A DNA stretch of 64,000 bases from Lentilactobacillus diolivorans DSM 14421 (GTDB lineage Bacteria; Bacillota; Bacilli; Lactobacillales; Lactobacillaceae): assembly GCF_001434255.1 (NCBI RefSeq), contig NZ_AZEY01000077.1:1-64000 (forward strand), written 5' to 3'. Below the pieces are notes generated by a model. It searched no databases, had not been told where the DNA came from, and saw only the letters and a list, made by a program, of their open reading frames with translations. Each line of letters starts with the position of its first letter. Within the stretch, counting starts at the first letter, position 1. Made by a program: the position numbers and the translations under genes. Positions 4,078 to 21,317 of this stretch are shown piece after piece.

Positions 4078-4196
4078 CACTATTAAATGTCTGATTTGGA
4101 TTGTGCTTTGGACAATTGGATAACTGACCGTGCTTCTCAAAATGAGGCGTCATTCAGCTGGCCACATTAAAATGGCCCACCCGTGACACTTCTCTG

Positions 4197-4302
4197 GTTA
4201 TCCATTCACACTTTCCTCCGCAAGCATTGACTTACAGGTTCTAAGGGATCAAGTCGAACAGACTCATCTCAGCCACTTACCGGTGGCGCCCCTAGTGTTT
4301 CT
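4197..4302 (-). promoter_or_regulatory. TPP riboswitch (THI box)
   Basis: The minus strand reads ACACTAGGGGCGCC, then GCTGAGATGAG, then CCCTTAGAACCTG and finally GCGGAGGAAAGTG. These are the conserved pieces of the thiamine diphosphate aptamer in the correct order and spacing. Bound TPP is expected to favour the terminator at 4035-4077 and shut off thiM-thiD-thiE. Confidence 0.9.
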
Positions 4303-4344
4303 ACTTTCTTTATACATGATTCAATCGGTCACGTCAATTGAATT

Positions 4345-17242: not shown

Positions 17243-17899
17243 ATGGCAAAAATGAAGGATTTTAAACAACGCTTCTATTATCTATGTTTATCAATTTTTA
17301 TCAACGCTGCCGGTAACGCACTGGCAATTTCCAGCAACCTTGGAAGTGCCGTTTGGACCGGTTCAGCGGTTAATCTCTCCAAAATGGTTAATATCCCATT
17401 AGGAACAACGTTATTTCTTTACGGGATTATTGTGACATTATCGAATCAGCTATTATTAGGTCAATTTGATCGACGTCGCTTCTTTTCGAATTTATTGTTT
17501 ACCTTACCATTCAGTTACTTGGTCCAATTTTCAGAATGGATTTTTGATTCACTCGGCGTTCCAACTTACGATTTCTGGTGGCGGGTCATTCTCGATATCA
17601 TTGGCCTGTTCTGTGTAGCAATGGCCGTTTCAATGTATTCTCGTGCCAATTTAATTATGCATCCCAATGACGACCTGGCTTACATCATTCGGTTTAAATT
17701 TACGCATGGTAGTGCCGTCATCTCACAATGGCTTAGTTACATTCCACCAGTTATTATTACAGGGGCCTGTTTCCTAATCACCGGCAATATATACGCGACT
17801 AACTTCGGAACCGTTTTCGCCCTTGTTTTCCAAGGTGCCATGATGAAATGGTCGGACACCCATGCCTTCCCAGCTCTCAAGCACCATGTCGATCTTTAA
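17243..17899 (+). CDS. YczE/YitT-type integral membrane protein
   Basis: A 218-aa protein with about five to six membrane segments. The opening FINAAGNALAISSNLGSAVWTGSAV is characteristic of the YczE/YyaS family of unknown-function membrane proteins. AAGGAG precedes the ATG. Its 3' end overlaps the convergent esterase gene by 23 bp, so the two transcripts are antisense over their stop codons. Function not known. Confidence 0.75.
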   Translation: MAKMKDFKQRFYYLCLSIFINAAGNALAISSNLGSAVWTGSAVNLSKMVNIPLGTTLFLYGIIVTLSNQLLLGQFDRRRFFSNLLFTLPFSYLVQFSEWIFDSLGVPTYDFWWRVILDIIGLFCVAMAVSMYSRANLIMHPNDDLAYIIRFKFTHGSAVISQWLSYIPPVIITGACFLITGNIYATNFGTVFALVFQGAMMKWSDTHAFPALKHHVDL

Positions 17900-18728
17900 T
17901 AAAAGCTGCAATCTCCTTAACTGTTTTTCGAGTTTCCGGTAATTTGAACCATAATGTATAATCATGAAATCCGTCTTTAAAGCTGGTGACATCCGGCATA
18001 ACACTGGCGGATTTTTTTAATGCCTGAATAAATCTTAAGTTACATGGCGTCAATAATTCATTATCACCATAAAAAATTTGAAGATCACCAATATTTAAAT
18101 TATCAGGATTAAAAACATCCTGCCAATCACTTGGCAGCCCAGCTGCAAACTGATCACCAATCAATTTTAATGTTTTTAAATCCAACATCACATCTGACTT
18201 TTCCCGTTCAACAAATTCCGCTTCATCAAGTCGCATATCCAACCATGGCGATATTAACGAGGCACCCTTAATTTTCGTTGGTACTTTCATAAACAACTGA
18301 ACAGCCAGAGCAGCCCCGGCAGAATCAGCCACTAAAAAAATAGGCAGCGGATCGGCAGTTACTTTATTAAAGGCAGCCATTACAAAATCCATGATTTCGG
18401 CGGCACTATATTTTGGCAGTAACGGAAAATCAAAAATTCGGATTCGACTATTTGCAGCCGTCCCAATTTTACTAATCATTTCTAATTGATCAGTATTCAT
18501 TGGAACAGTGAAGGCGCCACCATGGAAATAAATGATCTGATTGGTAGGATTTTTGACCAAATCAATCGTCACAAGTTGACCAGAATTTATCTGATTAATT
18601 TGATATTTTTTCTTACCATCCCGAAAAAGATTGATTTTTTGATTGGGATGTAAAAAACTGTGAGCAACATTTTTCTTATAATCTTCATTTTTGAATTGTT
18701 TGATTAACCGCCTTGCCATAAAGCTCAT
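17877..18728 (-). CDS. Alpha/beta hydrolase, HSL-type esterase
   Basis: A 283-aa serine esterase of the hormone-sensitive-lipase-like group. The oxyanion-hole motif HGGA is at 69-72, the nucleophile S136 is in ADSAGAA (GDSAG in most relatives) and the His is in GFHDYTLW near the C-terminus. AAAGGAG lies 8 nt upstream of the ATG. No signal peptide, so cytosolic. Convergent overlap with the YczE-like gene by 23 bp. Probably hydrolyses small acyl esters; substrate unknown. Confidence 0.85.
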   Translation of the reverse strand: MSFMARRLIKQFKNEDYKKNVAHSFLHPNQKINLFRDGKKKYQINQINSGQLVTIDLVKNPTNQIIYFHGGAFTVPMNTDQLEMISKIGTAANSRIRIFDFPLLPKYSAAEIMDFVMAAFNKVTADPLPIFLVADSAGAALAVQLFMKVPTKIKGASLISPWLDMRLDEAEFVEREKSDVMLDLKTLKLIGDQFAAGLPSDWQDVFNPDNLNIGDLQIFYGDNELLTPCNLRFIQALKKSASVMPDVTSFKDGFHDYTLWFKLPETRKTVKEIAAFIKDRHGA

Positions 18729-18828
18729 TGAAACAATCTCCTTTCAATAATTAATTGCTTAGTGCACGTGTAATTAATTTTACAGCTTATATGATTTATC
18801 AGACATATTTTCTAACTTTTTTGTAAAG

Positions 18829-18882
18829 TTCACAAAATCTTCACAATTTATTCACATTTTGGCAACAAGTCATCTTTATAGT
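18829..18882 (+). promoter_or_regulatory. Activator-type promoter of sRNA module 1
   Basis: Three perfect TTCACA repeats start at 18829, 18840 and 18851, exactly 11 bp (one helical turn) apart, with the -10 box TATAGT at 18877-18882. No good -35 box is present. Direct repeats on one face of the helix are the binding pattern of OmpR/PhoB-family response regulators such as PhoP. Confidence 0.65.
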
Positions 18883-18888
18883 AAAGAA

Positions 18889-19027
18889 CTGTTGCATGAG
18901 GTAAAACTTTTACTTCATGTTGGCAATAAATTAAATCCCCCTTTAATTTATTACTTTTGTATTCATATTCTTCCCCTAGAATATAGGTATCTTAAGATAA
19001 GACATCCCCGTGTCTTATCTTTTTTTG
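18889..19027 (+). ncRNA. Small RNA 1 with three C-rich hairpin loops
   Basis: No ORF. Predicted transcript of about 139 nt. After a first stem (CATGA.GTAAAA with TTTTAC.TCATG) come three hairpins: an 11-bp stem at 18925-18952 with loop TCCCCC, a 7-bp stem at 18965-18984 with loop TCCCCT, and the terminator at 18994-19021 (11-bp stem) with loop TCCCCG and a T run. C-rich loops are typical of small RNAs that pair with Shine-Dalgarno sequences. Expression is inferred from promoter and terminator only. Confidence 0.65.
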
Positions 19028-19240
19028 TGAGTTGAAGCAATCAGTGAAAAAGCCTAAGTACTTATTTCGGGGAAATTGGTTCATGATCAACTAACACATT
19101 CAGAAATGGTCCTCAAAATAATTACGCTACTATTAGTTTAACTTATAATTGATCAAAGCAGACACATAATCCCTTCAAAAAATGCTTTTTATGGATGAAT
19201 TGCATTGATTCTCCTTAATTGAAGAATATCTAATTGAAAG

Positions 19241-19294
19241 TTCACAAAATCTTCACACTTTAAGCACATTTTCGCAAAATCTCTACGGTATTGT
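19241..19294 (+). promoter_or_regulatory. Activator-type promoter of sRNA module 2
   Basis: TTCACA at 19241 and 19252, a weaker AGCACA at 19263, and the -10 box TATTGT at 19289-19294. The spacing is base-for-base that of module 1 (11, 11, then 26 bp). Confidence 0.6.
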
Positions 19295-19300
19295 ATAAGT

Positions 19301-19434
19301 ATAAAGAGATGTCAAAGAACGACTTTCTTAAACATAGAAATGATTCAGAAAAGTCAATTTTGGCTTCACTTTCATTTCCCCCCTCAATAAAGATATTAGT
19401 AAGGATAAGGTGCCCCCACACCTTATCTTTTTTT
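19301..19434 (+). ncRNA. Small RNA 2 with C-run and C5 terminator loop
   Basis: No ORF. Predicted transcript of about 134 nt. A run of six C (19378-19383) lies in a region with no obvious pairing partner, and the terminator at 19404-19434 is GATAAGGTG / CACCTTATC with loop CCCCCA and seven T. A 5' stem GACTTT / AAAGTC is possible. Confidence 0.6.
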
Positions 19435-19452
19435 ATGTCCTAAATCTGCCGG

Positions 19453-19639
19453 TAGCCGAGATCCTTTTTATTTGGTTGGCTCATTCGGCTTTTATTGTCC
19501 TGTATGTTAACTATCTCAATTTAACTGATTAATTAATTAGATTGACTTATTAATGACACACTTTTAGGCAATAACCTCTTTCATTACAAAAATCAATTGA
19601 TAAAACAAATTAATTTTAAATTATTAATAGCCGAGATCC
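19453..19639 (+). repeat. Direct repeat TAGCCGAGATCC
   Basis: TAGCCGAGATCC occurs at 19453-19464 and 19628-19639, each followed by a T-rich stretch. It lies between sRNA modules 2 and 3 and may mark a past duplication. Confidence 0.4.
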
Positions 19640-19686
19640 CTTTATCTGCCTTGATATCATCGGGTTTACTAAAAGTCATTCCCTAC

Positions 19687-19740
19687 TTCACACAAAAGTC
19701 ACATTTTCGTCCATTTTTGTTAATATTTACCCTGTATATT
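19687..19740 (+). promoter_or_regulatory. Activator-type promoter of sRNA module 3
   Basis: TTCACA at 19687, GTCACA at 19698, no match at the third position (GTCCAT at 19709), and the -10 box TATATT at 19735-19740. The 54-bp layout is the same as in modules 1 and 2, with the best -10 box and the weakest repeats. Confidence 0.55.
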
Positions 19741-19746
19741 AAGAAG

Positions 19747-19898
19747 CATGAAGAAGAGATAAACATTATTTCTTCTCACCCCCCAATAATTGAGTGATAG
19801 ATTAATCCCCCATTAATTTATTACTTTTCATATTCATATTCCCCTCAGAATATTGATACGATAGAGTCAAGGCGTTCCCCCGTCTTGACCCTTTTTTT
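19747..19898 (+). ncRNA. Small RNA 3 with four C-rich segments
   Basis: No ORF with a ribosome site. Predicted transcript of about 150 nt. C runs occur in CACCCCCCAA (about 19778-19785), in the loop of ATTAAT / ATTAAT (19801-19817, loop CCCCC), in the loop of ATATT / AATAT (19836-19853, loop starting CCCC) and in the terminator loop TTCCCC (19866-19889), which ends with seven T. Shares the AATTTATTACTTTT stretch and following ATTCATATTC with sRNA 1, indicating common origin. Confidence 0.6.
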
Positions 19899-20051
19899 AT
19901 CCACAATTAACGGATTATATCTTCTTTCGTCACATCGATATACCGTCATATTTGGAATTTTAACTTTTAATTATGTATGATTAATATGTAAAAATGAATT
20001 CTAACTGAATCCTACCAACTTCAACAAATCCGATGAAGGAAGTCATTAACT

Positions 20052-20318
20052 TTGAAATATAAGCCAAAATATCAGTCTCGTTTTAAGAAACACTATCAAA
20101 ATATGATCCGGGCTGGTCGCTATACCGAAACAGAATTTAAAACCATTGCGGATCAGCTGTTAAACGGCGAACCTGTTGATGACCGTCACGATGACCATGT
20201 CATTAAGGCAAAAAAATCAGAACGGGCTTTATTTATCAAAGGAAATTGGTTACTTATTTATACGATCGTTGGTGATACGGTTAAATTTTTAGACACTGGT
20301 CGCCATGGAGAAATATAG
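20052..20318 (+). CDS. YafQ-like type II toxin (RelE superfamily), solitary
   Basis: An 88-aa protein matching the YafQ family of ribosome-dependent mRNA interferases: basic N-terminus (KYQSRFKKHYQNM), central DDRHDDHVIK and final strands ALFIKGNWLLIYTI ... VKFLDTGRHGEI, where family members usually end TGTHSDLF. Start TTG at 20052 with AAGGAAG upstream. No antitoxin gene is adjacent on either side; the upstream neighbour is the sRNA cluster. It may be an orphan, silenced or inactive copy. Confidence 0.75.
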   Translation: MKYKPKYQSRFKKHYQNMIRAGRYTETEFKTIADQLLNGEPVDDRHDDHVIKAKKSERALFIKGNWLLIYTIVGDTVKFLDTGRHGEI

Positions 20319-20349
20319 CCTCGATTGGCATATTCCAAACTGGAACGGG

Positions 20350-20543
20350 GGTCCTCGCTGAAACGTGTGACATGAAGCAGATCCCGGCCATATAAGCCAC
20401 TAAAAAACCTGGCTACTTTGCCGAAACGTGCTGAAACAAGCAGCCTCCGGCCATATAAGCCACTAAAAGCCCCTATCCCAAAACAGGGATAGGGGCTTTT
20501 AGTGGCTTATATTCTGGAGACTAACCGCTTGTTGCAGCACTCT
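20350..20543 (-). repeat. Hairpin-element array e (two half units)
   Basis: GAAACG boxes at 20359 and 20422 (short period of 63). The last unit forms the full hairpin GTGCTGAAACAAGC with GCTTGTTGCAGCAC around a perfect inner stem (CACTAAAAGCCCCTATCCC and its complement). The AGAGTG box follows the stop codon of the LiaF-like gene with no base between. Confidence 0.88.
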
Positions 20544-21317
20544 TTATACAAAGTACACATCCACATCCGCCATTTTCGCCCTGCCATTCAACGTTACTGT
20601 TGGGCCATCGATTCCTTCGCTTCTATTCGTGACATCAATATCGGCCATAAACGGATCAATCTGATTCACTATTCGCCAATTCTTTGGGACATATAATTCG
20701 ACATCTGCCATATTTGCATCCAAATTAATTGTAGCCGCATCGCCTTGAATCTTAGCATCGTCAAAATAAACCTTCAAATCACCAATTGACGCATAAATAT
20801 CTGCTTGCTTAAAATCATCACTATGAATATAACGAACACTGCTTCCCATTTTCATGTTAACAATCGGGTGGGACTGATCACCATCAGTAATCTTACCATC
20901 TGGTTCGTCTTCGTCAGCCTCATCTTTATCACCACCCGTGAAGTTATACGAAACCCAGTTGCCTCTGTACCGCTTAGTAAATTGATGCCAATAATGCTTA
21001 TGCGTCAGTGGCTGCAAAATAATCGACAAACCGATACTAATCAACAACGCGATTAGCAGGATCGTCCACGGCACCAAATGCGTAATTCCCAATGGCCCCG
21101 CGTATAGCATACTCAAAAACGCCAGTGAGAAGACCGAACCAAAGATATTAAAATCCGCGACACACGAAACCAAAACAATCACCAATAAAATTGTCCAAAT
21201 AATCGTTGACGCACTCAGATGATAGCTGAACCACCCCATCTTAGCCGCCAAGATACTAATTGCACCCAGCAAAAAGATAAAACCAACGACAAACCGCCGT
21301 TTACCTGCTCTCCACAT
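20544..21317 (-). CDS. LiaF-like membrane protein
   Basis: A 257-aa protein with four hydrophobic segments in the first 105 residues, an acidic linker (DKDEADEDEPDGK, about 130-142) and a beta-rich C-terminal domain (about 150-257) with the repeated pattern MADVELYVP / MADVDVYFV, as in the LiaF/DUF2154 domain. LiaF-type proteins modulate cell-envelope stress signalling. The gene lies 4 nt downstream of a LytTR regulator and shares its transcript, which suggests a two-gene regulatory unit. Confidence 0.8.
   Translation of the reverse strand: MWRAGKRRFVVGFIFLLGAISILAAKMGWFSYHLSASTIIWTILLVIVLVSCVADFNIFGSVFSLAFLSMLYAGPLGITHLVPWTILLIALLISIGLSIILQPLTHKHYWHQFTKRYRGNWVSYNFTGGDKDEADEDEPDGKITDGDQSHPIVNMKMGSSVRYIHSDDFKQADIYASIGDLKVYFDDAKIQGDAATINLDANMADVELYVPKNWRIVNQIDPFMADIDVTNRSEGIDGPTVTLNGRAKMADVDVYFV

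Follow-up and report, generated by a model that had tools for sequence, protein, structure and literature searches.

What is encoded at positions 18829–19898 of the window (the whole 64,000-nucleotide stretch of Lentilactobacillus diolivorans DSM 14421 DNA analysed here; host genome, 3.26 Mb), between a divergent alpha/beta hydrolase gene on the upstream side (17877–18728, PF07859) and a YafQ-type toxin gene on the downstream side (20052–20318)? A previous interpretation made from the letters alone (hereafter, the sequence-only reading) saw no plausible gene in this region and proposed three tandem small RNA (sRNA) genes. Three consecutive modules, each running from half-sites through a -10 element and an RNA body to a terminator, were indeed found, with predicted RNAs of 130–150 nt (Table 1). 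The only open reading frame (ORF) of at least 60 amino acids (19597–19797, TTG start) overlaps the sRNA 3 body and was rejected as a gene given that relatives differ by indels across the overlapped body; ORFs within the sRNA bodies were likewise rejected as coding, given the indels in the alignments of types 1 and 3. Sequence comparisons, described below, indicate that these modules belong to a genuine family of tandem sRNA genes, conserved and as yet without a name, that is predicted to work like LhrC of Listeria and the csRNAs of streptococci and, by the tests that were run, belongs to neither. Two other features of the window are a TPP riboswitch (4196–4303, minus strand) and, at 20357–20512, two 49-nt direct repeats that are 80% identical and, next to them on the downstream side, a perfect 27-bp inverted repeat whose arms are 6 nt apart.

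Table 1. Predicted features of the three sRNA modules, in window coordinates
Feature	Position	Strand	Remarks
Half-site array 1	18829..18867	+	TTCACA at 18829, 18840, 18851; degenerate GCAACA at 18862; 11-bp period; predicted response-regulator type
-10 of sRNA 1, TATAGT	18877..18882	+	48 bp after first half-site
sRNA 1 (type 1)	18889..19026	+	start inferred about 7 nt past -10; fold z-score -8.0
Terminator 1, CCCC loop	18994..19026	+	terminator scan (18994–19021) and fold
Half-site array 2	19241..19279	+	TTCACA at 19241, 19252; degenerate half-sites beyond
-10 of sRNA 2, TATTGT	19289..19294	+	at +48; position counted by hand
sRNA 2 (type 2)	19301..19434	+	fold z-score -4.5; relatives compared by eye only
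Terminator 2	19401..19434	+	terminator scan (19401–19430)
Half-site array 3	19687..19725	+	TTCACA at 19687, GTCACA at 19698, then weaker repeats
-10 of sRNA 3, TATATT	19735..19740	+	at +48
sRNA 3 (type 3)	19747..19898	+	fold z-score -8.7; alignment and covariation
Terminator 3, UUCCCC loop	19866..19898	+	terminator scan (19866–19889) and fold

Scanning of positions 18000–20800 on both strands yielded 9 terminator-like matches, some of them overlapping, against 1.8 expected. The 419 nt of the three bodies contain 9 runs of four or more C (C4+), compared to a mean of 3.96 and a maximum of 8 in 2000 dinucleotide shuffles; there are no G4 runs in the bodies and no C4 runs between the modules. The sequence-only reading located the C-runs mostly in hairpin loops, in agreement with the MFE folds, where 7 of the 9 are wholly or mostly in loops. 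In sRNA 1, they occupy the loops of hairpin 2, hairpin 3 and the terminator; in sRNA 2, CCCCCC lies in a multiloop and the terminator loop holds CCCCC; sRNA 3 combines a CCCCCC linker, unpaired in the MFE fold, with three C-rich loops, and its hairpins 2 and 3 resemble those of sRNA 1, the stretch common to the two RNAs being AATTTATTACTTTT. A segment of sRNA 2, CATTTCCCCCCTCAATA, is the complement of a Shine-Dalgarno (SD) sequence closely preceding an AUG. When CATTTCCCCCCTC of sRNA 2 was tested as an unpaired anti-SD plus anti-start-codon segment, CATTT turned out to be paired and 4 of the 6 C unpaired in the MFE fold; a segment of this kind is not evident in sRNA 1.

Related RNA genes were detected by DNA search in all 24 Lentilactobacillus genomes, each of which also produced 1 to 3 matches in a search with the covariance model R1, the kind of search that the sequence-only reading had proposed. 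In all fetched loci but that of G011 (23 of 24), the hydrolase gene adjoins the RNA genes; a YafQ-type toxin gene, which in the window comes directly after the array, was found in 13 of the 24 loci when 1.5-kb flanks were included. The initial set of 24 loci comprised 27 type-1 and 18 type-3 copies; the three type-1 copies from G010, G018 and G019 were placed in the type-3 alignment, resulting in 24 type-1 and 21 type-3 rows. These three small genomes have one R1 copy each, with a more degenerate box, and in G018 and G019 the terminator loop has no C-run. Most copies retain the boxes, the C-runs and a terminator, contrary to the lack of conservation in relatives that, according to the sequence-only reading, would have spoken against such genes. 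C4+ is retained in the three type-1 loops in 24/24, 23/24 and 24/24 rows, and in the four type-3 segments in 20/21, 19/21, 20/21 and 19/21 rows, the misses coming from single species or pairs of like rows. The suggestion that stems change while the C-runs stay holds for type 3, where two-sided changes affect 12 of the 20 pairs, with a covariation score of 0.524 compared to 0.268 in shuffles (0 of 500 reached 0.524), in a structure predicted from the same alignment as used in this test. Of the cells in this alignment, 95.2% pair, two-sided changes occur in 62 cells (17.1 in shuffles), and pairing drops to 26–50% in slid versions of the alignment. The type-1 stems hardly covary (two-sided change in 4 of 34 pairs), most columns being invariant.

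A feature absent from the sequence-only reading is the layout of the promoters, which consist of arrays of TTCACA-type half-sites, 11 bp apart, and a -10 element. Plain sigma-70 promoters were rejected as a description of the region (6 matches against 12.4 expected in shuffles). Counted from the first half-site, the half-sites are found at 0, 11, 22 and 33, and the -10 at 48; this distance was recovered in 25 of the 27 type-1 and 11 of the 18 type-3 copies by taking the first -10 match found by a script, which in the remaining type-3 copies picked an alternative at 41 (six copies) or 51 (one copy). Direct repeats of 11 bp at a fixed distance from the -10, the hallmark by which an OmpR/PhoB-type regulon was judged, are thus present, and the arrays are, by sequence, predicted boxes of an OmpR/PhoB-type response regulator. 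The exact pattern TTCACAN5TTCACA occurs three times in the entire L. diolivorans genome, twice in array 1 and once in module 2. Summed over the 24 genus genomes, it has 103 occurrences, compared to 11 of its reversed version. With one mismatch allowed, 33 sites were found in the L. diolivorans genome compared to 18 for the reversed control, so single degenerate boxes elsewhere mean little. The same boxes were also observed in four relatives (L037–L040), where they lie between the genes in clusters encoding large exported or surface proteins of an unnamed family; in three of these loci both strands carry boxes. The N-termini of these proteins contain TYAKVTSNK or a like sequence, and no Pfam family was found for the three proteins tested.

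Under the reading we favour, an OmpR/PhoB-family response regulator would bind the 11-bp-phased TTCACA half-sites, which would replace the -35 element, and would activate the three promoters jointly, the likely signal being stress on the cell envelope. The L. diolivorans genome encodes eleven OmpR-family regulators, the names of which (LisR-like, CiaR-like, PhoP-like etc.) we assign presumptively, by likeness; for the five that were tested, there was no NCBIfam match above the cut-off among the best 25 listed for each. The leading candidate would be the LisR-like regulator, for which control of the sRNA promoters appears plausible, at slightly less than an even chance. In a survey of 36 chosen genomes (thresholds of >320 bits for LisR-like and >230 bits for CiaR-like proteins), a LisR-like regulator was identified in 33, including all 19 with a box or RNA and 14 of the 17 without an exact box. 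The latter count, together with the absence of a box before the regulator's own gene in 30 loci, makes the LisR-like assignment weak. The recognition helix of the LisR-like proteins is much alike in genomes with and without the exact box, and helix differences were rejected as a predictor of the box, there being no clean separation between genera. Autoregulatory boxes were rejected as well: four matches with at most 2 mismatches were found in the loci of the eleven regulators of the L. diolivorans genome, none directly ahead of a regulator gene; one of them follows the regulator of L088 and precedes a gene that, by eye, looks like a P-type ATPase. For lhrC5 of Listeria, PMC4132741 reports that positions -55 and -57 to -59 are needed for LisR induction; the first half-site here would fall at about -60, a coincidence that is suggestive only.

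It is a somewhat unlikely alternative that the sRNAs are real but answer not to the LisR-like protein but to another response regulator of the OmpR family, be it PhoP-like, CiaR-like or of a different type. Bacillus PhoP boxes are TTnACA repeats with an 11-bp period, a pattern closely matched by the half-sites and by their repetition ahead of the -10; PhoP-like and CiaR-like regulators are both present in the L. diolivorans genome, and WalR, L078-type and L082-type regulators were, like the LisR-like one, found in all five genomes compared. The CiaR-like regulator, however, was detected in only 18 of the 36 surveyed genomes and in just 13 of the 19 with a box or RNA; G011 (88% complete) carries the RNA without either a PhoP-like or a CiaR-like regulator; and the region upstream of pstS contains TTTACA-type repeats, not a TTCACA array.

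Beyond the genus, searching 397 genomes of the family with R1, under strict filters by which weak matches may be lost, produced matches in 28, that is, the 24 of the genus and 4 of the 373 others. Two of these four (G364 and G090) contain boxes and C-rich RNAs as judged by eye; the other two (G222 and G239) show neither and were rejected as likely chance matches. Companilactobacillus shares the promoter layout and RNA plan of Lentilactobacillus, with up to 7 copies at one locus: in L120 (1605–3439, minus strand), seven tandem copies are packed into about 1.8 kb, and for four a box is recognisable when one mismatch is allowed. In L119, extra R1 matches were noticed at 697–836, 909–1027 and 1584–1697. 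The Companilactobacillus half-sites are at 0, 11 and 33 and the -10 at 48 (43 distinct box-aligned sequences). Three Companilactobacillus C-runs are kept in 32 of 32 aligned rows chosen from 42 copies, the conservation of the terminator run being built in, since the copies were found by a pattern that included it; the consensus fold is weak (-6.1 kcal/mol). The model R2, built from these 32 rows, yielded 28 matches at E<=1 over 68 sources, mostly weak, the best being 4e-4 (L129, in g9) and one (L022, 839–947) being on the strand opposite its array; it matches other Lentilactobacillus RNAs weakly and gave no match in the L. diolivorans window or in 30 response-regulator control loci. R1 over 33 sources gave 68 matches at E<=1, and most of the strong ones coincide with modules of Companilactobacillus (down to 7e-7). 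Because R2 finds nothing in the window, the likeness of the L. diolivorans RNAs to those of Companilactobacillus rests on R1 and the layout. A scan of 20 box loci in other genera revealed a C-loop terminator downstream in 11 (Companilactobacillus, 6 of 6; g12, two; g35, g13 and g38, one each) and none in 9; the scan missed one RNA in g9, L129, later ranked first by R2. The RNAs of g12 and g38 have a two-repeat box 26 bp ahead of the -10 (hand count) and carry the motif TTTTTCATTTTTACTCCTCC or similar, complementary to the full SD plus AUG. A two-repeat box with ACTCCTCC-type motifs, near the csRNA plan, was observed in L123, L124 and L126 (g38, g12) and perhaps in L122 and L134.

A gapped pattern search of genomes of 84,980 species retrieved 77 stretches, 14 from Lentilactobacillus (including one labelled just Lactobacillaceae bacterium), 21 from Companilactobacillus (including one labelled uncultured Lactobacillus) and 42 from others. 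Among the 42, 16 look alike (one, L186, is doubtful), 12 of which come from Lachnospiraceae; the remaining 26 were set aside on their listing, with three read more closely. The 12 Lachnospiraceae stretches (L137, L144, L146, L159, L162, L165, L185, L188, L189, L192, L200 and L203) have an element in common in which CTCCCCCCTCAA forms a hairpin loop, CATTTTCCCCCCTTT a linker, and a long hairpin resembles a terminator; no Rfam match was found in the 6 of the 12 records searched. In these metagenome-assembled genomes of Lachnospiraceae, the conserved element has TTCACA boxes with a -10 at +48, and its two C-rich segments are accompanied by a long GAGCCCTTC hairpin. Other boxed, C-rich RNAs were found in Fusibacter (L153 and L156, with several C-runs per RNA) and a Clostridia MAG (L202). 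The pattern left the distance between half-site and -10 free, so the +48 spacing is not built in; the mean match to TATAAT (of 6) peaks at offset 48 in Lentilactobacillus (4.94, 17 sites), Companilactobacillus (4.68, 28 sites; 4.39 at offset 53), Lachnospiraceae (5.0, 12 sites; 4.83 at offset 35) and the four mixed records, which were picked by eye (4.5), against averages over offsets of 2.1–2.4. The 26 remaining records also peak at offset 48, at just 2.15. The rows within each group are related, such that the peaks amount to about three to five independent observations. Conceivably, though we lean against it, TTCACA half-sites, a -10 at exactly +48 and C-rich anti-SD sRNAs form an old, widespread Bacillota module, present in Lactobacillaceae, Lachnospiraceae and Fusibacter alike. 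Its RNA bodies would be replaced rapidly in evolution, the boxes and C-runs persisting, and LhrC and the csRNAs would be lineage forms of it.

As to function, we consider it fairly likely that these are tandem sRNAs, activated by a response regulator, that cover SD sites, perhaps those of envelope proteins. The three genes would encode trans-acting sRNAs, each ending at its own terminator and presenting several C-rich segments; pairing of these segments with G-rich SD sequences would block translation without Hfq, for which no match was found in the L. diolivorans genome. The targets would perhaps preferentially be envelope and exported proteins. When nine C-rich segments were compared with 396 genes (464 kb), the duplex energy was best just upstream of the start codon; because the starts were chosen with an SD score, this optimum is partly built in and shows compatibility with SD pairing, not targeting. 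The pattern TTGAGGGGGAA-N0-8-ATG, derived from the complement of the sRNA 2 C-segment, had 20 matches in the 24 genomes, compared to 6 for the reversed control, or 17 vs 6 without the three sRNA 2 genes themselves. Dropping from the 20 these three, four matches without a 100-aa ORF, two whose ORFs are short or broken and one that is an orthologue of another match left ten candidates: a DUF308 protein, an exported LRR protein, a kumamolisin-type protease, an MFS transporter, YetF, a Big_3 protein, a NEAT protein, an exported protein and a further protein that both lack a family assignment, and a Usp protein. The envelope bias of these candidates is modest, with 7 of the 10 membrane or exported against 131 of the 396 genes (p about 0.02 by hand arithmetic) according to a crude predictor that misses the Big_3 protein, exported-looking by eye. 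Within the 396-gene sample, GGGGG sites show no envelope bias (9/24 vs 122/372, p 0.39), and the values for GGGG and GAGGGG are p 0.013 and p 0.73, respectively. No candidate target was established as kept across the genus; the gene of the L078-type regulator, which scores well in L. diolivorans, was rejected as a conserved target given the lack of conservation of its GTGGGGG across the 5 relatives read.

It seems improbable that, rather than covering SD sites, the RNAs bind a protein or, as sponges, another RNA through their C-rich segments: a short motif repeated several times in each RNA, on stems that vary, does have the look of a sponge, but in sRNA 2 and the g12 and g38 RNAs the motif is part of a longer complement of SD plus AUG, an extension superfluous for a protein that simply binds C, and known UCCC sRNAs pair with mRNAs, as stated in PMC4132741. 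That the modules are non-regulators, either transcription by-products or short-peptide genes that are C-rich by chance, is highly improbable, since stems change in a compensatory way, C-runs are retained, each module has a promoter and a terminator of its own, copy number has grown and, with regard to coding, the bodies contain indels.

The likeness to LhrC and csRNAs seen in the sequence-only reading stands for the design of the RNAs but not for sequence homology, which Rfam did not reveal, nor for the CiaR box, which is absent. Rfam, which presumably holds the LhrC family, gave no sRNA family at the gathering cut-off in the window, and hence no sequence or structure match to LhrC; at E<=1, only ncr1241 and rliD appeared in 18800–19920, both far below their cut-offs. 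According to the respective reports, LhrC1–5 are multicopy, LisRK-dependent sRNAs of Listeria monocytogenes with UCCC motifs in loops and a linker (PMC4132741), pair with the SD regions of surface-protein mRNAs (PMC4132741, PMC5880928), have haem-related targets (PMC5880928), and bind Hfq without needing it (PMC4132741). The L. diolivorans RNAs likewise are multicopy, have predicted response-regulator control and carry several such motifs in loops and linker (the 9 conserved C4+ runs), and the NEAT-domain candidate target recalls the haem targets of LhrC; they differ in RNA sequence, hairpin number and the lack of an Hfq match in the genome. With the streptococcal, CiaRH-dependent csRNAs (Ccn), the L. 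diolivorans RNAs share no Rfam match. The csRNA box is TTTAAG-N5-TTTAAG, with the -10 ten after the second of two repeats, whereas here the box is TTCACA-N5-TTCACA and the -10 lies 48 bp after the first half-site; the CiaR box (NTTAAG) was rejected for the three promoters, which do not match it at up to 2 mismatches, and the one match of the CiaR repeat inside 18829–19898 (18930–18945, minus strand) is within the sRNA 1 body. In Staphylococcus, RsaE and other sRNAs use a UCCC motif for SD pairing, as described in PMC4132741. The motif is common to the RsaE-type sRNAs and the RNAs described here, without an Rfam sequence match. Staphylococcal UCCC sRNAs are not known to form tandem arrays with one response-regulator box.

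A literature search of open-licence PMC papers found no base-pairing sRNA family of like kind in lactobacilli. The present set is a family whose members can be counted in named genera and whose promoter, copies and seed motif are defined, which makes the regulator and targets testable in food bacteria, and the +48 promoter layout provides a sequence pattern for finding further RNAs of this type. That this layout is common to Lachnospiraceae suggests that two-component-driven anti-SD RNAs may be a general solution of Bacillota rather than two odd cases in pathogens.
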